NCBI GenBank assembly: GCA_021904315.1
Contig: CM038925.1
Location: forward strand, 8,496,501-8,560,500
DNA: 64,000 nucleotides
Origin: Sphagnum magellanicum
Taxonomy: Eukaryota; Streptophyta; Sphagnopsida; Sphagnales; Sphagnaceae
Direction of reading: 5' to 3'
Shown here: positions 1 through 64,000 of the stretch, piece after piece
Layout: every line of letters begins with the position of its first letter
Position numbering within the stretch: the first letter of the stretch is position 1
Made by a program: the position numbers and the translations under genes
Notes under the pieces: generated by a model
What the model was told of the DNA's origin: nothing
Seen by the model: only the letters and a program-made list of their open reading frames with translations
Databases searched by the model: none

Positions 1-2759
1 CTTGTGCCAACAAGTGATCCACTTCAGCCAACTTCTCTTTCATGTACTTATGCAACGTAGGAAAAATCCTTGATCTCCCACTCATACTTTTGGCATTCTC
101 ATAGAAGTTCTTCCACTCTTCCATGACATTGCTATTATTCAACATGAATGTGGTCAGCTGAATTAACTCTGTAGGTAATAACATACGTGTTTGGATGGCA
201 CCAGTCAAACGGTCTTCCTTCTCTTCTCTTTCCTCCATCCATACATGAGGACATGATGGATCTATAGTGGCCAAGATGTTGGTGTAATAAAACATGCTCT
301 CTGCTGCCAAGTGTCCTGTTGCCATGCTTCCCTCCACTCGTGCATGGTTATGGACATAACCCTTTAATACTGCCATATATCTTTCAAGCCAATACATCTA
401 CCGACAATGCACAGGACCAGCAATGGCTATCTCATCCACAAGGTGAGCTAGTAAATGCACTTGACAATCAAAAAATGATGGAGGGAAGGCCTTTTCCAAC
501 TTGCATACCACCTCTGCTGCTATAACCCTCATTCTTGGAATCTCCTCTACAAATAACTCCTTTGAACATACCCATCTCAATAGATATCCCAATGACCAAA
601 GAACATCTTGTACTTCTACACTGGCTAAGCCTATTATTGCCACATGCAATATGTGCTGCAGTAAACGATGATAGTCATGTGTCTTCAGATACCTTGGCCA
701 CTTGTGGTCATCGTCCCTACCAAAAGCTTTTTGAAGATTAGCTCCATAACCTGCAACAAGGATCCATAAAATTATACAAAATTATTTTAGACATCCAACA
801 AATAGCCGACTATATTTCAAACTCTTTTTCTAGTATAAGGCATACAAATTTAAATATAAATAAAAGCAACAAAGTATTTCTAAATTCAACCCTTGCCATC
901 AAAGTTCAAACCTGTAGGGAATTGCATCTCTCCTATGCGATTTCGAAAGTCTTTTCTTTCTTGTGTAGTAAGTGTCCATGGAGCTGATGGTCATTGCTCA
1001 ATACCTGTGTTAGGATCAACAGTAATCCACACATCAGGATGCCTCTCAAAATCCTCACAGGCCTCCCTAAAGTTACTATGCATCTCTCCATAGAGCTGTT
1101 TTATGATAGCCTTGCCCACATTTCCCTCAATGTGCATGGGGTCCAAGAGATGACGTATTTTCAACTCACCCCAATAGGGCAAGCTGTTGAGTATACCCCA
1201 CCTTGTCAATCCACTACCCTCAAACACCATAGAATCATTTGGGTCAATAACTCTATTGGCCACATCCCTCCAATATGCAAAAGTGGTAGCTTATGGAATA
1301 TCACGCTCATCACCATAAGGCATGTCAAAAGATGAAAATAAAAGTGGGTCTGATCTCATATCATGTCCCAGTGGAAGAAACTTTGTATGGCCAAGGTAAA
1401 CAATTTTGCGAAGGTGGCTTGAGTATTTAGCCATGTCCTCCAAACTTGGGCCACATGTAGAGCAAGCCTTATAGCCTTGAGTTTGCAGCCCACTTACAAA
1501 ACCAAACCCTGATTATAGAAGAGCTAAATATTAGAATAACAAATAATCACAAAACAAAATAATAATAAAAAAATATAGAGGCATGTGCATGATTTCTTAC
1601 CAGGATAATCATGCATTGTCCACATGCAGATTGCCCTCAACTTGAATACACGTGGTATTCCTCCAATGGTCTTCCTCCCATCATATGCCCATACTCCATC
1701 CCACAATGTTTTGAGCTCATCAACCACTAGTGCTAAGTAGGTGTCTAGGTTTTTCACCTTACTTGGCCCTGGGATAATAAGAGAAAGCAACAAAAATCCT
1801 TTTCTCATAGACAACCATGGAGGAAGGTTGTAATTCATGACAACAACTGGCCAAACAGAGGTAGGTCGTCCCTTTCCTCCAAGTGAATGTGGACTAACAC
1901 CATCTGATGCTAACCCCAACCTCACATGCCTAGGGTCACGCTCAAACTCTGGCCATGTTGACTCCACATGCTTGTGAGCAGGAGAGTCAAGCGATAACCT
2001 CATAACACTAGGCTCTGATCGATGTTTTTTATGCCAAACCATTAACTCGGCCAAGTTTGTACATTGATACATGTGCAGCAAGCGAGGAATAATGGGAAAC
2101 CACCTTATTGATTTCCTAGGCACCTTCTCTGTAAGCATGTGAGGATCATATTGAGCCTCTTCACATGTATTGCACTTCGTTAAATGGGCATTGTTCCCAT
2201 GAAATAGCATGCAGTCATTAACACATGCATGGACAATTTGATACTCCATGCCTATGGAGGATAAGATCTTTTTAACCTCCTTCCAAGATCCTGGCAAAAC
2301 ATTTTCCTCAGGCAGCAAGAGGCTATGACAATACTGGAAAATGTCTGACAACATAGTATTGCTTGCCTTGTGTTTTGCTTGGATGTTTAATAACCCCAGT
2401 ATGGCTGCTAAATGGCTTAACCTTGCACCTTGAAAAATAGGTGTTCGAGCATGTGCCTCCGCCTCTTGCCACTGCCGTTGTCCCTGGGCAGTATGTTGAT
2501 GATGTGGAACATCTGCATTGGCTCCTTCATCATGTGGGTTGCCAGACATATCATCAACTATGTCAAGTCCAAACCAGTCAACCATGAAGTCATCCATTGC
2601 TTGTTCTTGGTTTGCAGGTAGTGGTGTTTCCTGAACTGGTTGAGAGACACCTTCATCATGAGCAAACAAGTCATTTGATGAATAATGAGTTAATGAAGAG
2701 TCTGATTTGTGTGGCATGCCCATTTCCCGATATGTTGCTCTCAACCTCCGTGGCAGCAT
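1..2759 (-). pseudogene. CACTA transposase, tnp2 (Transposase_21) type with DUF4218-like C-terminal region; broken
   Basis: The first large exon runs from the ATG at 2757-2759 to a donor at 1599-1600 (G|GTAAG). The intron is 1509-1600, and the next exon resumes in frame from 1508, giving DYPG-FGFVSGLQTQGYKAC, a hallmark of tnp2 proteins. Further on come LLDPMHIEGNVGK (about 1120-1160), then LKTHDYH, SKELF, FPPSFFD, HLVDE and GPV, the order seen in the DUF4218 part of plant En/Spm transposases. In-frame stops lie at 1291-1293 (TAA), 991-993 (TGA) and 398-400 (TAG; the family has Trp here, so TGG to TAG). The C-terminus continues off the window. The usual N-terminal Transpos_assoc zinc-binding region is not seen, so an upstream exon may be missing. 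This enzyme family excises and reinserts CACTA elements. Confidence 0.88.
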
Positions 2760-2926
2760 GTCTTCAAAAGGCCGAATATTCTATGCAATACCAAATCCAG
2801 AAGATCTTAACTATATACCAAGCATAGTTGCATATTACATTATAAATAAAAAATGCCAAAATGCATGTATATAGATATGGTATGTTATGTCTTAAACAAA
2901 GTACATAGTTCAGAAATGGTGGAATC

Positions 2927-4074
2927 TTAACTCCACTCATAATGTGTAAACAACTCATCTCCTAATCTGATGGTCCTAGTAGCTATAACCAGGCACTGGT
3001 CTTCATGATAAGTTTGGCCATATGGTGCTGGAGGAGGTCCCTCAACAAAAACCCACTCACAATTAGCCCTACGCTTAGGATGAGTCCCACTGTACTGTTG
3101 ATGAAACCAGCAATGTTTCCAGAACGTATGGGGTCTCCATCTATCACCCTCACATCACTATGCCTCCTAGTGCTACCAGCAAAGGTGTCCATCTCAAGAG
3201 CAAAGGTCTTCCACTCAGGATTGTTGTGTGAGGATCCTATTCCAATGTCTTCTCTTATAGATAGGCCCACCATAAGGGAACAAAATAGGACCCTCTCTAC
3301 GACATCTAGCTGAATCCTCTACAATGATGTCCTCACAAGCATATACTCCATAGCCATGCCTCTCTCCAAGTGTAGAGGTCTTAACAATCCATCGTCTACC
3401 CCAAACCACAACCTCCTCATCATAGGGCAAACTATCAAGCAACCCAAGAACTACAGGGTTCCATGATTGGATAATATTGGCACATTTGCCAGTGAACTCA
3501 CACATACCCCATCTGCCTTCAATAATAGTCCTAGCATGACCCTCACTTGGACGTTGTGCTTTGGATCGCTGTCTAACGGAGGGCACACGTGGCCTTGCCT
3601 CATGCTGTGACTTATTGGCCTTATGAGAGGTACCAATCCCTATAGCAAATGCCTGCGAAAGTGCATTTCCTATGGCAGCTAAAACCCCTTGTGATAGAAC
3701 ATAGGGTGGTGGTTTCATACGGGAACCCTATTACATTCAAAAAACCACAACAAACCATGGAAGTGAAAATAGTTTCAAAGAGGATTTCATGAAAAATAAC
3801 ATGTATCAAAGAGGAAAAAATGACAATGGTAAATGACACTTACCACATGAGATGAAGAAGCTCCTAGAGTAAGACCACGATGACGCCCAAATCGCTGAAT
3901 GTGTTGAACACAAACATATGACTTTTGTGAAATCTGACCAACACACTTGATGCATTGGCGAAGCTGCCGAGGTGGACCACGAGGAAAATGAGACACCTCT
4001 GCCTGCGTATGAGTTGATGTGCCCTCATTTGAGGAGGATGAGTCACTAGTGGACACAACGAAAGAGGAAGACAT
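2927..4074 (-). pseudogene. SET-domain protein (lysine methyltransferase-like) inside the CACTA element; two frameshifts
   Basis: Exon 1 is 4074-3844 (77 codons, Ser-rich start, a CIKC pair). A 116-bp GT-AG phase-0 intron follows (3843-3728), then exon 2 from 3727 to the TAA at 2927-2929. Exon 2 encodes SET-like blocks in canonical order: HGYGVYACEDI, then PYGGPIY (about 3260-3380), WKTFALEMD, GNIAGFINS (about 3097-3125), then NCEWVFVEG, a VIATRTI stretch and LGDELFTHYEW just before the stop, matching the GEEL..Y end of SET domains. The blocks lie in shifted frames: one shift near 3225-3240 and one near 3088-3096, probably small indels. SET proteins transfer methyl groups from S-adenosylmethionine to lysines; the substrate cannot be inferred. 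The gene sits head-on upstream of the transposase in the same orientation. Captured host gene or long-standing element gene are both possible. Confidence 0.75.
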
Positions 4075-4699
4075 ATCATCTGTCACATTAATACAACACA
4101 AGTGTAAGGCAAAGACCAAATTAGACTTTCAAAAATCATGTCATATAACAATATAAACCCTTGACTACTCATAAATTGAGACAACTTAAACAAAAAAGAA
4201 ATGCATACCTGCATCCAATGTGGGCTCAACAATGCCTATAGGACTGGTTGCTCAAATAATCCCAACACCAATTTCGAAGTAGGGGGCAATACTGTAAAAA
4301 CCCTGTGGCATATGCAAAAAAAAAACAACAAAATGTTAAAGCCAGAATAAATTAAAACTTTGCGAACCCCCCACCATCGCATCCTTCTTCGCACCCAAGC
4401 CCTAAACCCTAAAACTTCCTCTTACATTAACGAAGTCCCCGACTTCGCAACCCTCCAACGTTGCGAAAGTAATAGCATTGCATGGCCTTTGTGATAAAAC
4501 CCGTATCGCAAGTTCCGATGCGAGTTACATCGCAAGCCCTGAATTACCGAAAGTCCCTAAGGTGTAGTGAAACGGAATCCCTTGAAGCTGGTGTAGTGAA
4601 ATCTTTCTGGGGTCCTAGAGTGAAACGACGTCGGAATTTGAATTCATCTGGGCATTGCTCGAGAATTGTCGAAGGAAAGCTTGGGCAGAGCGGATTGCA
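4075..4699. promoter_or_regulatory. Candidate bidirectional promoter region of the CACTA element
   Basis: This non-coding stretch separates the minus-strand SET gene (ATG at 4074) from the plus-strand gene (ATG at 4700). Between about 4355 and 4535 it holds at least seven copies of the element's GCGA/TCGC motif (for example TTTGCGAA, CTTCGCAA, TTGCGAAA, TATCGCAAG). A short sequence GTGTAGTGAAA occurs twice about 35 bp apart (4563, 4592). Divergent promoter use is inferred from layout; no convincing TATA box was assigned. Confidence 0.45.
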
Positions 4700-6505
4700 A
4701 TGGCTGGGACTGGTGGAGGGGGTTTTGGGTCTAGAGGAGGTGACAACAATGAGGAAAGGTTGAGGAAGATGATTGCTGATCACTTGAGAGCTTCAAAGCT
4801 CTCTGCAATCGATACTAGGACACCTGAAGGGTTGGCATCCTTGACAGCCATTTTAAGTCAAGCACTGCAAGCAGGGTTGACTGCTGGGGAAGCACAAAAA
4901 GATGAGGAAGCAAGGAAGGCTGCAGAAGCCAAGGCAACAGAGAAGAAGAGAAAGAGAGATGAAAGAGCAACAATAAGAATTCTCTCACCTAGAACTCTCG
5001 AGAAGAAAAGGAGGAAGGATGAGAGGGATGCCATCAGAAAGGAGAAGCTCGACCTGAAGAAGAAGGAGGAGGAGAGGAAGAAGCTCCTTCTGATAACATT
5101 GGCAGAGGAAGGAATTCCAACTGAGCTGGCATACACTGGGGCGAAAAGCACCATTAGGCACATTGTCTCCACTAACTTTGCACGAGGAATTGAGTGGGGC
5201 ACTCTCTCAAAGGCAGAGCAGAAGAGAATGATAAATCAGGTCAAGGGAACATTTTGAAATGGAGGAGAGTTTAATTCTGGGTGGATTGCAGACAAGATCT
5301 CCAATTCAATGTCTCAAGCATGATACCATGACAGGATGAAGATTCGTGCTCACCTGAGAGACCTGAATGTGTATAGGAACTTGGAGAGGCCGCTTCAGTT
5401 CTCAGAAGACATCTGGAATGCCTTTTACCAGTTTGAGGTGCAGCTGAAAGCAGCAAGGCAGCTGAAGGAGATCACAAAGCAATTAGCCAAGGCCAAGAAG
5501 GCAAGAGAGTTTGGGAGGTCTGACTGTGACCTGAAGGCACTGGAGCTGAAGCTTGCTAAATGCTAATCAGTGGTGGATGAGGTTGGTGATCCACCATTGA
5601 AGTTCCTCAAGGCAGCAGAGCGAGTGAAAATGGTTCCAAACACCACCCACAGGCTAGGGCAAGGTGGCATTCCCGGCCTCAAAGCAGCATTTGTAAGTAC
5701 CCTAAACCCTCTCCTCCATTTCTTTCCTGCAAAGACTCACATGCTTGTGAGTTTCTGTCCAGTCCAACTGGACTTTTTGCGATACCTTTGCAATGCGAAT
5801 TACATCGCAAAGATAGGTATATGGAGTTTTGGCCTTTTGGGTTGTGATAGTAGATGCGATGCGATTTGTTTCGCAAACTACTTTGCAAGTGTTAGTATGC
5901 GAAGGTCTGCACTTCGCAAAAGTGGTCGGAGACTTGAATAGATTCTTTATGCATTTTTTTTACCTGTTGTATTATGGGGATAGTACAAGAGGTACAAAAG
6001 GAAGATCACAGCTGCAGAAATGAATATGGGCCAGGAGCATGGCAAGGAGCATCTTTTTCAACATGTTGATGCACTATTGGTGAGTGGGTTTGGTTGGGAT
6101 TCAATTTCTGTCTGTGTTGAAATTGTTTTCATTTGAATCAAGATTTTCATTGACTAAGCTTTGCATGTTGAAATGCAGGCATCTGAGGGTGAGAGTGAGA
6201 GCTCTGAGGGTAGCAGTGATGAGGAGGATAGAGATGAGGAGGAGAGAGCAGGTAGCACTGCTCCCAGTGTGCTACTTGCTCCGAGTGCTAGCACTAGCAG
6301 TAGACCCAGTTCATTTGCTAGTTGAAATGAAGGTTCTGCAGGGGCCGAAGATAAAGAGAATAGGGAGGAGGAGGAGGAGGAGGAGGAGGAGGGGCAGGAG
6401 GACGATGAAGAGAGGGAGGAGGATGAGCAGCCTCCCCCTCCACCAGAGAACACTAGGAAGAAAGATTCAAGGAAGAAATCCAAGAGGGGAAGGAGGTCTA
6501 GATAG
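4700..6505 (+). pseudogene. Plus-strand CACTA-borne gene: charged coiled-coil-like protein with acidic tail and basic C-terminus; four in-frame stops
   Basis: The likely start is the ATG at 4700 (MAGTGGGGFGS); an upstream in-frame ATG at 4655 is also possible. Exon 1 stays in one frame to 5692, broken only by stops at 5255-5257 (TGA), 5321-5323 (TGA) and 5564-5566 (TAA). GT-AG phase-0 introns at 5693-5983 and 6080-6178 join exons 5984-6079 and 6179-6505, again in frame, with one more TGA at 6323-6325. The protein has a Gly-rich start, a long Lys/Glu/Arg helix rich in KKRKRDE-type runs, a Ser/Glu segment, about nine Glu in a row, a Pro run and a basic end (KKSKRGRRSR) that could be a nuclear signal. 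I do not recognise the family. Position and charge would fit a TNPA-like DNA-binding partner of the transposase, but that is inference. Confidence 0.6.
5775..5935. repeat. Intronic cluster of the CACTA GCGA/TCGC motif
   Basis: Inside intron 1 of the plus-strand gene lie about nine copies of the motif in both orientations (TTTTGCGATA, AATGCGAATT, ATCGCAAAG, GATGCGATTT, TTCGCAAAC, TATGCGAAGG, CTTCGCAAAA). The density resembles the terminal cluster at 6600-7217 although it is over 1 kb from the end of the element. Confidence 0.6.
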
Positions 6506-6599
6506 ACAACTAGATACCCAAGGGTTGCAAACCCTTTTACATTGTAAATTTTGAAATTTTGATATAGATTTTTTTTTTGCGGCCCAAAGTGACCCAAAT

Positions 6600-7217
6600 A
6601 AACCCTGCTTCCAAAATAAGAATACAGTGCCATGCTCTTGCGATACACAGTGCATCTCAAAAAAATTTGCGAGTCATAATTCTTCGCAATACTGCAAAAG
6701 TCAAAAGACCAATAATACCATGTCACAGACATCGTTACACTCTTGGGGGTAAAATCATTCCAGAACACGTTTGCGAAATCTATGATTTTGCAAACTTTTA
6801 GTGACATTCTGAGAATCCCAAAAAGTTTGCGTGGTTTCCGATATAAGATCTAACGCAAACTTGTTGGGATTCTCAAAATGCCGCTAAGGGTTTACGATGG
6901 ACCTTATTTCGGAAACCGATAGACTTTTGAGTCGATTCGCCAAGTCGTTGCGGCGATGGGTTTGTTGCAAATAGTTTCCGATGTAATGTCAATCGCAAAC
7001 GGTATATAGAAGCAGTTACAATCGTAAAAGGTTTGCGATTGTATCAAGTTCGAGAGTTGTGAAGGACTTGCGATTGTACGGGTGCGAATGTTGTAGTATC
7101 ACAAAGGCTTAACAGTTTGCGAGGAGTTATGGTTCACAAATGCGGGTTTTCGGAAACTTCTTTCTTTGTTGTTTGCGATGATATGTGGATCGCAAAATAG
7201 CCCCTATTGTTGTAGTG
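6600..7217. repeat. Subterminal repeats and right terminal inverted repeat of the CACTA element
   Basis: TTTGCGA/TCGCAAA variants recur roughly every 20-50 bp in both orientations (about 6638, 6667, 6682, 6770, 6826, 6853, 6938, 6965, 6993, 7030, 7067, 7118, 7168, 7190). Such arrays are the binding sites of the small En/Spm regulatory protein in known elements. The terminus is the TAGTG at 7213-7217. Confidence 0.8.
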
Positions 7218-7220
7218 ATA

Positions 7221-21070: not shown

Positions 21071-22539
21071 GCTACACGGGAACAAAGAAGTGGAAGAGCC
21101 GGGGGGAAGACAAGACGGCCCTTTCGAGGAAAGTGGTTGCCGGGAGCGTTGTCGCTGGCAGCCGCGAGGGAGAAAGAGAGATGGGGATCCGGACGAGCAG
21201 CAGCAGCATGATCGCGGCGCTGTAATCTGCCTGTCTTTTTGGTCTTCCCATGGCAGAAGGGCTCAACGCCATGTGGGTTTCGGATGCCGTCTTCGGACTC
21301 GGATAACTTGATGACGATTTTGGGGTTTCGGGTGAGAAGGGCATCATCAGCTGTGATCTTTATCTAGTCAAGGAGCCTGGGAAACTTCGGGAAGCAAAAT
21401 CTTTTCTGCACAAGCATTTGATTATGGCTGCTGCTGCCGTTGTCCGTTGTGCACTCATAGAGTGTTTTTCTCGTCGGGGATCGATCGTAATGAAACAAAA
21501 CTTGACGGTAAATAGCATTGTTTAGCGCCTGGTTGGTTGGTTGGTTTGTCCATGGTGGTGGTGGTGGTGGTGATGATGTTCATGATGGTGCTGGTGGTGA
21601 CGACCGTGGGTTAGCTATTAGGTTTTTTGCTGTCCAGACTTTACCGGCGGGTCGTCTGGGACACGGATCTGCTTGCCCGCGGATATCCGTTTGCAAAGCC
21701 AGGGTTTCCAGTGCTTTCTTTCTCTTTCTCTCAACCTGCTGCCGACTGCTTCAGGGTTTGTTGCCTGGCTGCGGCGGCGTTGCTTGTTGACTAATTTCTT
21801 TAGCATCAAAGCATCCATGCTTGTTGCAGCAGCCAGACAGGTGTTTGTACTACTTTTAGTGTGAATACATGGCTTCCAAGTCTGGGTACTGGATGATCGG
21901 TTGTGTCCACCGTGGTTTTTCTCTTTCTAAGTTTCGACACAGGATCATACCGATCTCGTCTTCCATTCAATGGATGGAGCGTAATTGAATCTGTGTTACA
22001 AGGACGTGCATTCTAGAATTTCTTTGGGTTCTGGTCTATGGGTACTCGTCGTTCGGCGCTGGATGCAGTTTATCTCACTCGGACCCATGATCTATGTGGA
22101 GGTCTGCAGGATCGTGCCGGACCCTTCTGGCAAGATTTCTTCAAGCTGCTGGCTGGTTCATCTTCCTTGTGCCTGCAGGTGCAACCTTTGGCGGTGGTAT
22201 AGTTTCGGATCATTTCGTCTTTGGCCGGATCGTATAGTCTAGGCTTTGTGTAATTGATCATGAACTCCATCGTCGATCATGTGCGAGGGAATGTCAAGAG
22301 GAGGGGAGCTGAAGTCCTGCAACGTGACGACGCTGCCTGGCGAGGGTTTTTTGTTGTGAAAGAGAGAGGAGAAATGATGTGCAGAGGGTTTCTTGTTGTG
22401 AAAGAGAGAGGAGAAATTATCTGATCTGCAAAAGGATTCAAGTGTGACCACGGAATTTCTAGAGTAGCTAGACGCCAGTTTTTGTATACCTTCACCATTG
22501 AACAGCACGGCACAGTCGCATCAACCTCCTGCACGTTAT
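21020..22539 (+). promoter_or_regulatory. Upstream region / probable 5' leader of the LBD gene
   Basis: The sequence is markedly more GC-rich than its surroundings and free of recognisable transposons. It contains a GGT/GTG triplet repeat (about 21552-21600), several short upstream ORFs and a 42-bp tandem duplication (22342-22383 and 22384-22420) of a GAGGGTTTYTTGTTGTGAAA-type sequence rich in GA. Transcription start and any leader intron cannot be placed. Confidence 0.4.
22342..22420 (+). repeat. 42-bp tandem duplication about 120 bp upstream of the LBD start codon
   Basis: Two adjacent copies share TTGTTGTGAAAGAGAGAGGA and differ at a few positions, then diverge. It may sit in the 5' leader. 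Confidence 0.85.
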
Positions 22540-23301
22540 ATGGCGTCGTCTTCCAGCTCTCCCTGTGCGGCATGCAAGTTTTTGAGGAGGAAGTGCACGG
22601 CGGAATGCGTGTTTGCGCCATATTTTCCACCCGACCAGCCTCACAAATTTGCCAATGTGCACAAGATTTTTGGAGCTAGCAACATCACCAAACTACTCAA
22701 CGAGCTCCCTCAGCATCAGCGAGAGGATGCCGTGAATTCTCTGGCATATGAGGCAGATGCACGAGTCAAAGACCCCGTGTATGGATGTGTGGGAGCCATT
22801 TCATTGTTGCAAAGGCAGGTTGCGCAACTGCAGAATGAGCTAGCAATCGCGCATTCAGACTTGGCCGGGTATGCTGGTGCCAGGATGGTAATAGGAGGTC
22901 CAGCTTCTGGCTCACAAGCTCATGGAGGCGCAGCAGCAGCTGGGGGACCTTCTTCGTCTTCTGCTTCCTTGGGCATTGGAATGGGGTTACCCGGAACAGC
23001 TCAATCTGGTGGTCGGGAACAGCACCAGATGTTGACTAGACAGCAGCTCATTGGTCTTGCAAGAGATCAGCCACCACAGCAGCTGACGAGAGAACAGATC
23101 ATGGAGCTTGCTAGAGTTGGAGGAGGTTCTTACGAGGCTGGTTTGGCTGCACTCGGATTGAGTGGAGCTCTCACCGCGGGTCCCTTAGGATCAGGACAGT
23201 ATTCATCAAGTCGAACCACAGGAGGCGAGAGTCACGGCAGCGGGAGTCATGGCGATCGTACTGCAGGACTAGGACACATGCAGCAGTCTCGCGGCTCATG
23301 A
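22540..23301 (+). CDS. Class I LOB-domain (LBD / AS2-like) transcription factor, 253 aa
   Basis: LBD proteins are plant-specific nuclear DNA-binding factors acting in organ boundaries, lateral organs and rooting structures. The start is the ATG at 22540 (MASSSSSP); the open frame extends to 22498, but that codon is TTG. The LOB domain covers about residues 8-108. It has the zinc-binding block C9-x2-C12-x6-C19-x3-C23, the GAS block around PHKFANVHKIFGASN (34-48), DAV..LAYEA..R..DPVYGC (63-83), and a class I leucine coil L90-x6-L97-x3-L101-x6-L108. The tail is Gly/Ser-rich and carries two related segments, LTRQQLIGLARD and LTREQIMELARV (about 152-180), which I do not know from the family. It is a single exon in the visible sequence, with no lesions and complete. 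The specific orthologue cannot be named. Confidence 0.95.
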   Translation: MASSSSSPCAACKFLRRKCTAECVFAPYFPPDQPHKFANVHKIFGASNITKLLNELPQHQREDAVNSLAYEADARVKDPVYGCVGAISLLQRQVAQLQNELAIAHSDLAGYAGARMVIGGPASGSQAHGGAAAAGGPSSSSASLGIGMGLPGTAQSGGREQHQMLTRQQLIGLARDQPPQQLTREQIMELARVGGGSYEAGLAALGLSGALTAGPLGSGQYSSSRTTGGESHGSGSHGDRTAGLGHMQQSRGS

Positions 23302-59329: not shown

Positions 59330-60680
59330 TTAATCTTGTGGAGTGTGATAGATTTGTAGATCCCTACGAGATCTTTCCCACTGATTCCCATCAGCATCCT
59401 GAATGATGCATATTTTGCTGCCTTCTTCAAAATCAAGATTTCCAATCCCATTTGCATGCGCTACAAACTAGTATGGACCTTCCCAGCTAGAAGTCAAAGC
59501 TTTCTTCTTTCCTGGCTTCTTCATCTTAACCATTGTTTGTCTAGCAATTAAACCCTCAAAAGTTTGTTTTCCTTTTCTGGTAGCATAGGTCTTCCTTTGC
59601 TTTTGTTGTGCATGTTCTACGTTGAATAGAACGTTCTCATGGATGTTGGTAATCAACTTCATCTTCTGCATAAACTGTTCTGCAGTAGTTTCTGCATCAA
59701 CAATGTCATCAACCACAACAGTCAAGGAATGTAGGTAGTTATCAGCCCTGAGGCATGGTGTGCATCTAGTCAATATCATGAAAGGGGAAAATTTAGTGCT
59801 GGATTGAATTCCGCATCTGTATCCAAACATAACCTTTGCCAGTTGCTCATCCCAACAGTTGGCATTTTCGAGTGTTGCAGATAGTACCGTTATGCCATGT
59901 TTAATAGTCTTGATCAGACAGCCATACCATTGCACTGTGGCCATTGAGGTGTTGTATGTTGATGGTGAATCCCATAGTCTTTGCACATGACATCAAATTC
60001 TGCTACCCACTCTCCTCCATTATCAGTCAATACAAATTTGGGAACCCCATACCTACAGATTATGTCATCTTCTAGGAACGTGGCCGCAGTCTTAGCACCA
60101 TGATTAGCAATAGCCTTTGCCTCGCACCATTTAAAGTAGTGGTCGATAACCACCAGAATATACTTGTTTCCTGACTTGGTTTCAAGCAATGGTCCTGCAG
60201 TGTCCATAGCAACTCTATAAAACCCTAGTGATGACATTCTTCATTTTGCACATTAAAATTCTTTAAAATTCTTCATTTAGCACCTTGTCATAACATTCTT
60301 GACCCGCGAATGTTTACCAAATTACACTGGTTGATCTATAAAATTCTTTAAAATTCTTGCTTCTTTGGGCTTCCATAACATTCTCGCACCAAGAATGTCA
60401 TCACTATGTATAAAACAGATCACAAATAGGTATACTCTTCAACTCTTCATCTTCAGAACATATACTCCTTATCATTCTCACCATCTAACACTATTGGAAT
60501 ACCTTTACAACAGTCTTCACATCCTCTATCCTATTATGCCAAAAGTACCTTCTACATATTTCAACTAAAGTCTTTTTTTCTCCGAAATGTCTTAGGTCTT
60601 TATGCATTTGGACTACTAGTCCCATGCGGTCTTCTAGCCTTGGCACAAACAACCCTTTGAAATAAAGTGATTGATCCTAC
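59330..60680 (-). pseudogene. Gypsy integrase, interrupted by a MITE and a frameshift
   Basis: The N-terminal zinc-binding region is worn (HKDLRHFG and RRYFWHNR visible, the Cys pair partly lost, about 60480-60650). The core has the first catalytic Asp in AMDTAGPL (about 60195-60210) and the second in LTDNGGEW (about 60010-60035). The third acidic residue, expected after PQCNGMA (about 59945), falls at a frameshift and is missing. The other frame continues with LIKTIKHG, then a basic region, and ends at a GPY motif (TSSWEGPY, about 59470) with readable sequence past a stop to about 59330. It is non-functional. Confidence 0.85.
60224..60408. mobile_element. hAT-type MITE, 185 bp, 8-bp TSD TATAAAAC
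   Basis: The ends CCTAGTGATGACATTCTT and (inverted right) CATAGTGATGACATTCTT match at 17 of 18 positions. TATAAAAC flanks both sides (60216-60223, 60409-60416). Removing it restores an uninterrupted stretch of gypsy integrase (DLFYRVAMDTAG). The 8-bp duplication and a CA-start terminal repeat are typical of hAT. Inside, TAAAATTCTTTAAAATTCTT occurs twice (about 60253 and 60340). Confidence 0.93.
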
Positions 60681-61270
60681 CAGTGGTAGTTTAGTATCCT
60701 TTTCCTTGCTCTTTTAGATTCCACAGGATCAATAGTGTCTCGTAGTATTCCTTCTTGTAATAAATTCATGCAAGTTACATCCTTCCATATGTCATTATTT
60801 CTTGTGTTTGTTCCACACTTATCCTCCTCTTTAGAACTTGTAGAAATCAAGTCATGTTCACCAGATTCAAACAGTTCTTGGGCTGCCAACACTAACTCCA
60901 ATTACTGTCGTTTATCATAGTAATGAGGTTTCCTTCTCTTCAGCATCACTTTTACATCATCGTCTTGCATAAAGTCTCCCCCTTTTGTATTTTCTGCCTC
61001 ATATGGAACAAGCTCCTTGGGCTGGTCTTCCTCTGATACAACATTAACCACATACAGCTGATGGCTGCTGGCATAACTACAGTGGTTGATACCAAAACAA
61101 CACGCATGATGTTGTGTAAACTCCTTGTCCAATCTCTTGACACCGAGCCATTCTGTTTCTTTGCTAGTTTAAACAAAGAGAATCTCCCCTTCTTCTTAAG
61201 GTGTGTCAGTTTGTGTATTTCCAATGTCCTGGATTTTTTCACTGAAGTCATCATCATCCGTGGCTGGTCC
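60681..61270 (-). pseudogene. Gypsy pol linker between RNase H and integrase
   Basis: Coding-like frames join RNase H to the integrase: an acidic stretch (PKELVPYEAENTKGGD), a basic RRKPHYY piece, then an acidic segment at 60677-60901 ending KRARKRILNYHW. There is no catalytic motif. One stop lies at about 60902. Confidence 0.55.
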
Positions 61271-61931
61271 AACTGGATTCCTACTCAAAGCATCAACATT
61301 CGTATGTCTGAGTCATGGTCGATGTATTATTTTGAAACTAAAATCCTGTAGCATGTAAATCCACCTGCCTCTCCTGCCATGTGCATCTGACACGGTTACT
61401 AACCATTCAAGTGGTTTATGATCTGTGCACAAAATGAAATGATTCCTGTGCAAGTACTACCTGAAATACATGATGCCCCATATTAGTGCATAGCATTCCC
61501 CTTCCAAGGGATGGAATTTTCTTTGTGCTTCCGTTAAACTCTTACTGGTGTAGGCCACCACCTTTTCAATTTTTCCCTCTTTCTGTGACAATATAGCTCC
61601 AACACCTTTGGGTGACTAGTCAACATCCAGACAAAATGTTCTCTTGAAATCAGGTCGTATGAGTACAAGCACATCAACCAGTGCTACCTTTAACGCTTAG
61701 AATGCCTGTTGACAGCCCATATCCCACACAAAATCAACATCCCTTTTTGTCAACTCAAATAGTGGAGCTGCCAGTCATGAATAACCTTGGACATAATTCC
61801 GGTAATACCCTGTCAGACCATGGCCTAGAAATGTAATGCTCTTTGTAGCAAAACAACATTTGTTTGGGTTCAATTTTAGGTTTACTTCCTTGAGTTTGTA
61901 CAACACTGCATCCAAATGTTGAAGATGTTCC
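61271..61931 (-). pseudogene. Gypsy RT thumb/connection and RNase H
   Basis: After the RT active site comes HLQHLDAVLYKLKEVNLKLN and FLGHGLT (about 61790-61920), typical of the RT end. RNase H is seen as SPKGVGAILSQKEG, VVAYTSKSLTEAQRKFHPLE, GECYALIWG and CTDHKPLEWL (about 61395-61625), then NVDALSRNP (about 61275-61310). Several stops interrupt it. Confidence 0.8.
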
Positions 61932-62444
61932 TCAACTTTCGCTGTGCACATTGAGATCATCAACGAATACCTTCAGGAATTTGCTACCCAAGTCCTTAAA
62001 ATCCTTTAACATAGTTCTGGTAAAAGTATTGGTTGCATTATTAAGACCGAATGGCATGACTGTCCAATCATACAATTTGGTTTTAGTGATCAAAATTGTC
62101 TTCTTCATGTCTTCTAGAGCCATTCGAATTTGCCAAAAACTAGACTGCAAGTCTAAGGCGGTAAACCATGATGATTTTCCCAACTGGTTAATCACATCAT
62201 CCACGAGTGGCATTAGAAATGAATCCCAACGTGTTTGTGTGTTGAGTGGTCGATAGTCTCCACAGAAACACCTACTCCCATCCTTCTTCATTGGTAGAGT
62301 TACCTGACATGTATACTCAGAATTATTGGGCTTCATCTTGCCCAAATCCACCAGGACATCAATCTGCCTTTTCACTTCTGCCTCCTCCCAGTAGGATAAT
62401 CGACCAAGAGATACTTTGCAAAGTGGAAACCCTTGCGTATCCAC
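61932..62444 (-). pseudogene. Gypsy reverse transcriptase, active-site half
   Basis: One open frame of 170 codons covers the RT fingers and palm: QVTLPMKKDGSRCFCGDYR (about 46-64), the first catalytic Asp in FTALDLQSSFWQI (D98), VMPFGLNNA (129-137) and the FVDDL box (160-164, Asp pair 162-163). Phe in place of Tyr before VDD is a common variant. It copies the element RNA into DNA, and is part of a broken polyprotein. Confidence 0.9.
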
Positions 62445-62599
62445 AAAATGTTCCCCAATAGTGCAACAACCTAGTTCACCCTTGTTCCAAGCAAAAACAT
62501 CTTGGTATCGCTCTAGAACTTTCTAGAGTTGTTGTTGCTTCTTTTCATCCAAGCTAGTGTCAATCTTGATTCATTGACAGATCTCCTTCCATCTAGTGT

Positions 62600-63055
62600 T
62601 CATTTCATCATGGTTGGATGATGCCAACTGATCAGTGGGGCTGCAATCAAGGTTGCCATCTTTTGTTTAAAGAACCTGAGATTCTCTAGCAGTGTTAAGA
62701 TTGTGGGGGTGTGGCCTTGGTTGGGTTGCTGTAGCAAAAGTGGGATAGTTGCATCATGTGTGGATTCATACATGGCCTGTCTACTTTGCTCTGCATCAGA
62801 CACCCATCTCAACCAGTTTGTGTAATCATCCGCATCTGTGATTTCTTCTTCCATGAACCCGTCAACTTGCTCTTGTAGTATCAGTTGCAGAATCTCTTGC
62901 GGTCCTTCTAACCTTACCAAATCCTCCAATTTATTATCCCTAAACTCATCTTCACAATCAATTTGTTTCAATTGACAAGACTCCCAATCATAATGTTCAC
63001 TACCATCAATACCAGTATTTGAATCTAAGGTAGATGCATCATCTTCTTTGGTCAT
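62600..63055 (-). pseudogene. Gypsy protease-RT linker region
   Basis: A 151-codon acidic open frame lies between protease and RT. It shows no catalytic motif (DDASTLDS, DCEDEFRDNKLEDLV, EEEITDADDY). Its place in the polyprotein is clear; its role is unknown to me. Confidence 0.6.
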
Positions 63056-63231
63056 GACAGTACTATCCTGATTGGTATCCAGTCATAATCATCATTAATG
63101 TGTGTGTTTTTCAAGATAGTCGTAGCCTCTTGCATCAGAGCTTCTGAGTTCATCCTCTGTAACAAATTCACCTTAGTCAATGGCAATACTTCCACATTGG
63201 CCCTTGGACCATGCCTTACTTGGATTAGGCC

Positions 63232-63948
63232 TCATTCCACATCCACAATTGCACCAATCTTTATAAGAAAATCTAAACCAAGTAATACATCATAAATGTC
63301 TATATCAACTACCATGAAGGTCATAGTGCATTGCACTCCTCCAACCTTCACTAGTACTTCGTCAATCCTACCAAGGGCTTGTGTGACAACTTTTGACGTT
63401 GTTTTATAAGTTTCAGATTTAGTAACAAGATGCATTATGCCAAGTTCTCTAACTACAGTGGCAGCCATAACAGACATGGAGGCTCCAGTATCCACTAGTC
63501 CTTCAACAACATAGTTGTTGATCTCCATGAGCAAATGCAAAGTCTTGCTTCGATGGGTCTTGTTGATGCAGATCTTCCTCAGTGCTAGAACCGCAGACAC
63601 CATTGACACCTGATTTTTAGTTGCCTCTAAATCCCTCTTTCGCCTTGCCAACCTTACCAAACTTTCAAGGTGTTCCAGTTCCCTTAGAATCATCAGAATG
63701 GTTTCCATAGGTGAGAGGGAGATCTTTCCTTTTATGAAGTGTGCAAGAATCTTGGACCTGACTGAAGTGTCCCGGTTTGCACCTATTCCATCTCCTACAG
63801 CTTCAAGGGTTGGTACAGCCCCTCCTGGTGCTACATCAACAGGAACCCTCCTTGTAGGCACTCGGGTGTAAGAGAAAAGATTCTCATTCCCACAAAGCTT
63901 ATTAAGTTGTAGCATGGTTGCCGCTTCATCATTCAGCAACACCTCCAA
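63232..63948 (-). pseudogene. Gypsy gag end and aspartic protease
   Basis: A 238-codon frame begins in a gag/linker-like region rich in charged residues (RRKRDLEATK). It then has the protease active site VEGLVDTGASMSVM (about 148-161), followed by a flap-like segment and the C-terminal DVLLGLDFL motif (about 222-230) normal for retropepsins. It would cleave the gag-pol polyprotein. The frame seems intact but its upstream start is outside the window. Confidence 0.85.
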
Positions 63949-64000
63949 AAAGTTTGTTGCTCCAGAATATGACTTCCCATCTTTGGGCTTCTTCCAACAT

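Follow-up and report, generated by a model that had tools for sequence, protein, structure and literature searches.

The window analysed here, a stretch of 64,000 nucleotides from the genome of Sphagnum magellanicum, begins within a complete CACTA element of 8,683 bp, which covers window positions 1..7217. The left end of this element was read in the adjoining DNA (locus L046), 1,466 bases ahead of the first base of the window, and its right end, GTTGTAGTG, lies at 7217; the terminal inverted repeats begin with CACTA on both sides (CACTACTACATATTG on the left and, reversed, CACTACAACAATAGG on the right). The element is flanked on both sides by the target duplication ATA, the left flank ending in ...ata and the right flank beginning with ata (7218..7220). 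Among the five loci viewed, three (the window, L040 and L042) are complete elements with CACTA ends and exact 3-bp duplications. The element at L040 is 8,779 bp long (ATA) and that at L042 is 8,720 bp long (TTG), and the ends of both are similar to those of the window element. At L039 the flanks read tgtc/tgtc, one base out of register in the test for a 3-bp duplication, and at L041 the left end is present and the right end is absent from the stretch read.

The transposase is encoded on the minus strand. Its first large exon, the tnp2 ORF (1524..2780), starts at a phase-0 splice acceptor (AG|AAT) and matches PF02992 with 129.5 bits (E 1.3e-37). The next coding stretch (991..1512) contains in-frame stops at 1293 and 993. 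It is followed by a DUF4218 part (2..781, with an in-frame stop at 400) that scores 51.1 bits against the profile at 398-781. Beyond the left edge of the window the transposase continues to a DUF4216 part, which reaches 26.4 bits (E 1.1e-5), under the cut-off of 30.6, in the sister copy L042. The transposase is therefore of the PF02992 type and not of the Harbinger type found in HarbingerS elements. With CACTA ends, a 3-bp duplication, tnp2 and subterminal repeats all present, the element is a CACTA/EnSpm transposon. In L039, about 1.1 kb of extra DNA (2322-3426) is found in the transposase region, and its translation contains a repeated lysine-rich unit. Elsewhere in the window, the ORF list shows by eye an open LBD/AS2-like gene at 22468-23301 (plus strand) and pieces of a Gypsy-type polyprotein at 59468-63999 (minus strand).

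Inside the element, at 4074-2927 on the minus strand, lies a gene of two exons encoding a SET-like protein. Read from right to left, the order is a leader exon of 77 aa (exon 1, 3844..4074), an intron of 116 nt (3728..3843), the SET exon (2927..3727; in intact copies it encodes 266 aa followed by a stop) and, 146 nt further on, the tnp2 ORF from 2780 leftwards. On the other side is a divergent plus-strand gene starting at 4700, so the placement of the SET gene between the transposase and a divergent gene, as given by the first-pass annotation, is correct. The spliced leader exon that it described is borne out as well: exon 1 joins the SET exon in phase 0 through a GT..AG intron, and these splice sites are kept in 48 of 51 genomic copies, the other three having GT..AA. 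All the SET blocks that it named are found in the order it gave, on the minus strand within 2927-3727, distributed over three reading-frame pieces. The window copy is broken by two indels whose lengths cancel, leaving exon 2 still 798 nt long. The number of frameshifts had been called rightly, but they are located slightly downstream of what the motif list implied: intact copies stay in frame past PYGGPIY (to ...ILTQ) and past GFINS (to ...TVG).

The window pieces joined as one protein match the SET profile PF00856 with E 2e-4 and 22.2 bits, just below the cut-off of 22.4. All 13 intact genomic copies scanned match the same profile at E <= 1 (best E 2.5e-6), and the first of them, the one copy with a bit score at hand, exceeds the cut-off with 26.2 bits (E 1.1e-5); the identification as a SET protein, which a profile search without any match would have overturned, is thereby upheld. 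SET proteins are characterized by motifs known as GxG, YxG and ELxxxY. Their counterparts here, GYGVY, PYGGPIY and GDELFTHYEW, occur in nearly all of the 30 copies compared and, together with RANCEW, are nearly invariant. Canonical histone-lysine methyltransferases also have an NHSC motif and a cysteine-rich post-SET region. In the majority sequence of the family (GNIAGFINSTVG; 30 copies) NHSC is absent, with FINSTVG in its place, and the post-SET region is absent too, the ORF stopping directly after THYEWS. PR/SET enzymes also go without NHSC, and some of them are active. A sequence search of the PDB returned no SET entry, a scan of NCBIfam gave no meaningful match, and an AlphaFold model of a window piece, made without an alignment, had a mean pLDDT of 31 and was discarded. 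By profile and motifs, the protein is a SET domain, but an unusual one, and a putative methyltransferase.

The host genome (438,994,042 bases on 31 contigs) contains 129 matches to the window SET protein, 79 of them near-full, the window copy included. A sample of 51 copies, mostly the best-scoring of these 79 and again including the window, was compared in detail, and the top 30 of the 79 were read with flanks of 1.5 kb. The SET exon is intact (798 nt, no stop) in 25 of the 51 copies, the leader exon (ATG, open) in 25 and both exons in 13, splice sites being counted apart. Exon 1, SET and tnp2 lie side by side in 30/30 flanked loci, some of the tnp2 ORFs having deletions or frame breaks. A tnp2 match occurs within 3 kb of SET in 77 of the 79 near-full copies (within 500 bp in 71), and the remaining two, when read directly, were found to adjoin a tnp2 with an internal deletion. 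Hence the intact copies beside tnp2 that the first-pass annotation had proposed to look for exist in the host genome, every near-full copy adjoins tnp2, and copies outside a CACTA context, which would have spoken against its reading, number 0 of 79. The reverse pairing is similarly tight: a SET or a SET piece is present within 3 kb of all 69 near-full tnp2 matches of the lineage (within 500 bp of 68) and of 108 of all 111 tnp2 matches, those without one being three partial matches, two on contig C6 and one on C18. Since 110 of 629 tnp2 candidates were scored in that search, the pairing holds for the close lineage only. The SET gene is, then, fixed in a single autonomous lineage of CACTA elements and is not just a feature of one broken copy.

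Six other CACTA loci (L070-L075), with transposases 39-43% identical over the shared part, were read for comparison. They represent about four kinds, L070 and L072 as well as L071 and L073 looking like pairs of the same kind, and none of the six has a SET relative by profile (7 kb each, reaching about 3.2-4.2 kb upstream of tnp2). Their transposase ORFs are long and open (532-811 aa), and one of the loci is on the small contig C20, which we take to be the small sex chromosome. Nor was a PF00856 match found within 15 kb of any of 115 other tnp2 places, which had been sorted by eye as outside the family from the matches listed among 150 scored of 657 candidates; as this search places just 4 of the 79 family copies above the PF00856 cut-off, its zero count is weak, and the six loci read directly provide the better comparison. 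No host donor of the SET gene was found: the protein search of the genome gave family copies and their pieces only, as judged by identities and places, and the eight host SET loci compared (L001-L008, the best of 47 PF00856 matches) have no detectable similarity by profile to the element SET. IMG/VR, searched for SET and tnp2, and bacterial and archaeal genomes, searched for SET, yielded no confirmed relative.

Some other SET-like sequences were met in the host genome. A fragment of a SUVR-like SET exon (GNISRFLNHRC; the family name was assigned by eye) lies at 2754-3107 of L067 and is unlike the CACTA SET. PF00856 matches of similar size on C1, C5 and C12 indicate that this fragment may recur at several places, in some of them with stops. 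No SUVR-like ORF of 100 aa was found in L068, the other locus fetched together with L067. Possibly, the SUVR-like fragment is a second dispersed SET-bearing sequence. On contig C3, L006 carries what appears by eye to be a truncated ATX/TRX-like SET gene, and two further PF00856 matches on the same contig (6318596 and 6501491) are like it in size and score.

The leader exon may provide some clues regarding the origin of the two-exon structure. It reads CQCTKCVGQISQKSYVCAQHIQRFGRH, with a spacing like that at the N terminus of the other CACTA transposases studied here, where a zinc-like stretch such as CPCAKCEG...VRDHLVLNGRH is found. The pattern CxCxxCxG...HxxxxGRH, present in the majority sequence of exon 1, occurs in full in three of the six other CACTA loci and in part in L074 and L075, and was not found in L073; in the two loci scanned the N-terminal domain scores 24.2 and 23.1 bits against PF13963, the profile of the transposase-associated domain (TAD), below the cut-off of 27.7. 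None of 100,000 shuffles of exon 1 fits the pattern, which was written after both sides had been seen. Compared with the TAD, exon 1 gives no Pfam hit and an hhalign probability of 10.5%. L075 has a small separate ORF of similar spacing upstream of its tnp2 ORF, and in a phmmer comparison of exon 1 with this locus the TAD-like ORF received an E-value of 0.013; an ORF on the opposite strand outranked it with 0.010, so this value is not evidence. Exon 1 thus resembles a TAD by pattern only. The tnp2 ORF of the SET lineage has no TAD by Pfam, its acceptor AG|AAT (phase 0) is kept in 29/30 copies, and the donor of the leader exon is in the same phase. The leader could therefore be spliceable to either exon, and, as the SET exon lies in compatible phase after the TAD-like exon and before the tnp2 exon, alternative TAD-SET and TAD-transposase products may be made.

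The SET/transposase genes and the plus-strand gene are separated by a divergent intergenic stretch (4075..4699) with five copies of the motif TTGCGA/TCGCAA in 625 nt. This corresponds to 8.0 per kb, versus 0.16 per kb outside the element (9 in 56.8 kb); the 4 kb of tnp2 and SET contain a single copy. Ten more copies are in the right subterminal region and right terminal repeat (6505..7217), and four are in an intron of the plus-strand gene (5696-5990, 295 nt). Both ends of L039, L040 and L042 have clusters of the motif, as does the left end of L041, and the internal clusters recur in all of L039-L042. Because the motif occupies both the element ends and the divergent stretch, the promoter region of the SET gene bears the element's own motif. 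The plus-strand gene itself (4700..6504; exons and end drawn by eye) is a multi-exon gene for a lysine/glutamate-rich protein, with in-frame stops in the window copy and no Pfam match. It is present in 29 of the 30 flanked loci, none being found within the flank of L022, and we infer that it is a candidate TNPA-like partner of the lineage.

The copies stem from a single recent burst: the mean pairwise difference in the SET exon is 3.8% (51 copies), and 90% of the length of the copy tree is terminal, with support of at least 0.9 at 6/48 internal nodes. Given such a star-like tree, the pairing of SET and tnp2 could come from one founder. C>T or G>A accounts for 325 of the 414 changes counted in 30 copies. 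Among 28 copies of the intergenic stretch, 32/32 CHG and 47/50 CG transition opportunities have been used at least once. We read this transition load as the trace of long methylation of the copies. Copies that are methylated and silenced would be expected to show such an excess, so whatever protection the element enjoyed was not lasting.

Comparison of dN/dS across copies, which the first-pass annotation had suggested, revealed near-neutral decay within the burst and lends no support to function. Relative to neutral and corrected for the mutation spectrum, the N/S ratio is 0.87 for SET, 0.89 for tnp2 (27 of 30 loci; the rearranged L009, L021 and L037 dropped) and 0.88 for the plus-strand gene (27 of 30 loci and the window; L009, L022 and L035 dropped), with p>0.3 in all cases. 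With the three genes alike near neutral, conservation among copies was rejected as proof of function; at the same time, this pattern cannot separate a working gene from a passenger. Replacement to silent changes in SET number 33:11 among shared variants and 112:37 among singletons, the shared ones not being poorer in replacements. The plain pairwise dN/dS of SET is 0.78 in 30 copies and 0.69 in 15 intact ones, and the former was likewise dismissed as proof of function, as it stands above the wrong-frame controls (0.45 and 0.50). Stops in SET are somewhat fewer than expected (10 versus 18.7), which can be explained by the choice of copies through protein similarity. Divergence is 0.032 in SET versus 0.055 in the intergenic stretch in the 30-copy set, and 0.038 versus 0.099 (intron, 0.016) in the 51-copy set; since the loci had been selected for SET similarity, no argument was built on the lower value for SET.

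SET genes in DNA transposons have been described before. SET histone methyltransferase genes are known from HarbingerS elements and from oomycete MuDR elements (Kojima and Jurka 2014, Repbase Reports, as cited in a passage of PMC12730594), and the first-pass annotation, which had spoken of a rarely described cargo, was therefore right in kind. Like the present element, these are DNA transposons with a SET gene besides the transposase. As far as the description in that passage goes, they differ in that the transposase here is tnp2 of the CACTA/EnSpm type, the carrier is a land plant, and the SET exon has a TAD-like exon on one side and the tnp2 exon on the other. Standard plant CACTA/EnSpm elements are characterized, in the relevant passages of PMC8978399, by TAD, Transposase_21 and further conserved domains. 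The present lineage shares with standard elements the CACTA ends, the 3-bp duplication, the subterminal repeats and a tnp2 with DUF4218 and DUF4216, and differs from them by the extra SET exon. As additions to CACTA elements, the same passages name Peptidase_C48 and pieces of captured genes, whereas the main text of PMC8978399 has no instance of the term 'SET domain'; a passage of PMC13317346 likewise reports that CACTA elements capture gene pieces. Among the papers listed in searches of the literature outside Repbase itself and the subscription journals, none was recognisable as a report of a SET gene in a CACTA element of plants.

Other transposons offer partial parallels. The VANDAL elements among the MULEs of Arabidopsis encode VANC, a factor that acts on their own silencing, and have short motifs in their non-coding DNA (passages of PMC13317346 and PMC12730594), which is similar to the arrangement seen here. 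In contrast, VANC is not described as a SET protein in those passages, and an anti-silencing role of SET in our element is putative. Some fungal DNA transposons, EnSpm among others, carry a TET/JBP dioxygenase (a passage of PMC12730594); they too have a chromatin- or DNA-modifying enzyme as a transposon gene, albeit a different enzyme in a different kingdom. In SETMAR a SET domain is next to a transposase domain (Hsmar1), but SETMAR is a gene of the host that contains one intact copy of the transposase, as described in part of PMC9062482, whereas here a mobile family keeps the gene. The presence of a SET gene beside the transposase suggests that the element may try to control its own silencing.

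How could a SET gene have become part of this lineage, and what might it do there? In the scheme that we tentatively favour, an exon coding for SET would have entered the transposase gene and come to lie between its TAD and tnp2 exons, and one promoter would give rise to two splice forms, TAD-SET and TAD-transposase. The SET protein would share the targeting or partner domain of the transposase and could thus be brought to the element's own DNA. There it might methylate histones (or the transposase) and leave the element open to expression for a while, in the manner of the anti-silencing factors known from other transposons; this last part is the weakest of the scheme. Taken as a whole (a fixed SET gene, acquired as an exon within the transposase gene, with two splice forms and a self-directed anti-silencing action), we consider it to have somewhat less than an even chance of being right. 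The more specific version of a two-product locus, in which the zinc-domain exon would be spliced either to tnp2, for movement, or to SET, for re-marking of the element's own ends and promoter, is rather unlikely.

The idea that SET arrived as a separate insertion nested in the element, or is a host gene lying beside tnp2 by chance, could draw on the failure to find a host donor. Yet a chance neighbour would hardly adjoin tnp2 in 79/79 near-full copies, keep the order exon 1, SET, tnp2 in 30/30 flanked loci and lie inside both ends of three complete elements. The genome-wide pairing and the complete elements refute this idea, and we give it practically no weight. It is harder to set aside a SET gene or exon that entered a CACTA element in a single capture and then spread with the founder in one burst, as a passenger without function for the element. 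The near-neutral decay of SET, the star-like tree, the lack of a SET relative in six other CACTA loci of about four kinds, and the capture of gene pieces that passages of PMC8978399 and PMC13317346 put on record would all fit such a history. However, SET is no gene fragment: its ORF is full-length, and the splice sites that link it to an exon of the element are clean; it shares the motif-bearing promoter of the element, it has been kept beside 69/69 near-full transposase matches, and the equal near neutrality of tnp2 and the plus-strand gene deprives the decay pattern of its discriminating value. We regard the passenger explanation as unlikely, if only to a degree.

The altered motifs permit yet another explanation, namely that SET is not catalytic or is self-limiting: the protein would bind chromatin, histone tails or the transposase, or would lay down a repressive mark that restrains the element. 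The replacement of NHSC in the majority sequence, the lack of post-SET cysteines before the stop and the strong C>T decay signature of the copies are in line with this. On the other hand, GxG, YxG and GDELFTHY are present in nearly all of the 30 copies, and PR/SET enzymes, some of them active, lack NHSC as well. Such a protein appears improbable to us. Anti-silencing by a SET exon acquired within the transposase gene stays as our preferred, if tentative, reading.

At a practical level, annotation of the genome may count the element's SET copies as host SET genes. Even with SET as a passenger, the family would be a clean case of a CACTA lineage in which a chromatin gene has become fixed and has spread to about 80 places in one genome. 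If SET works, the lineage would represent a natural plant DNA transposon with its own histone methyltransferase, which the transposon could direct at itself through the targeting domain of the transposase; and if the two-product locus is real, it would be a self-targeted histone methyltransferase made by exon capture in a transposase gene. With a working SET protein, the notion that transposons place chromatin marks to their own advantage would become directly testable in mosses, a group with good genetics.
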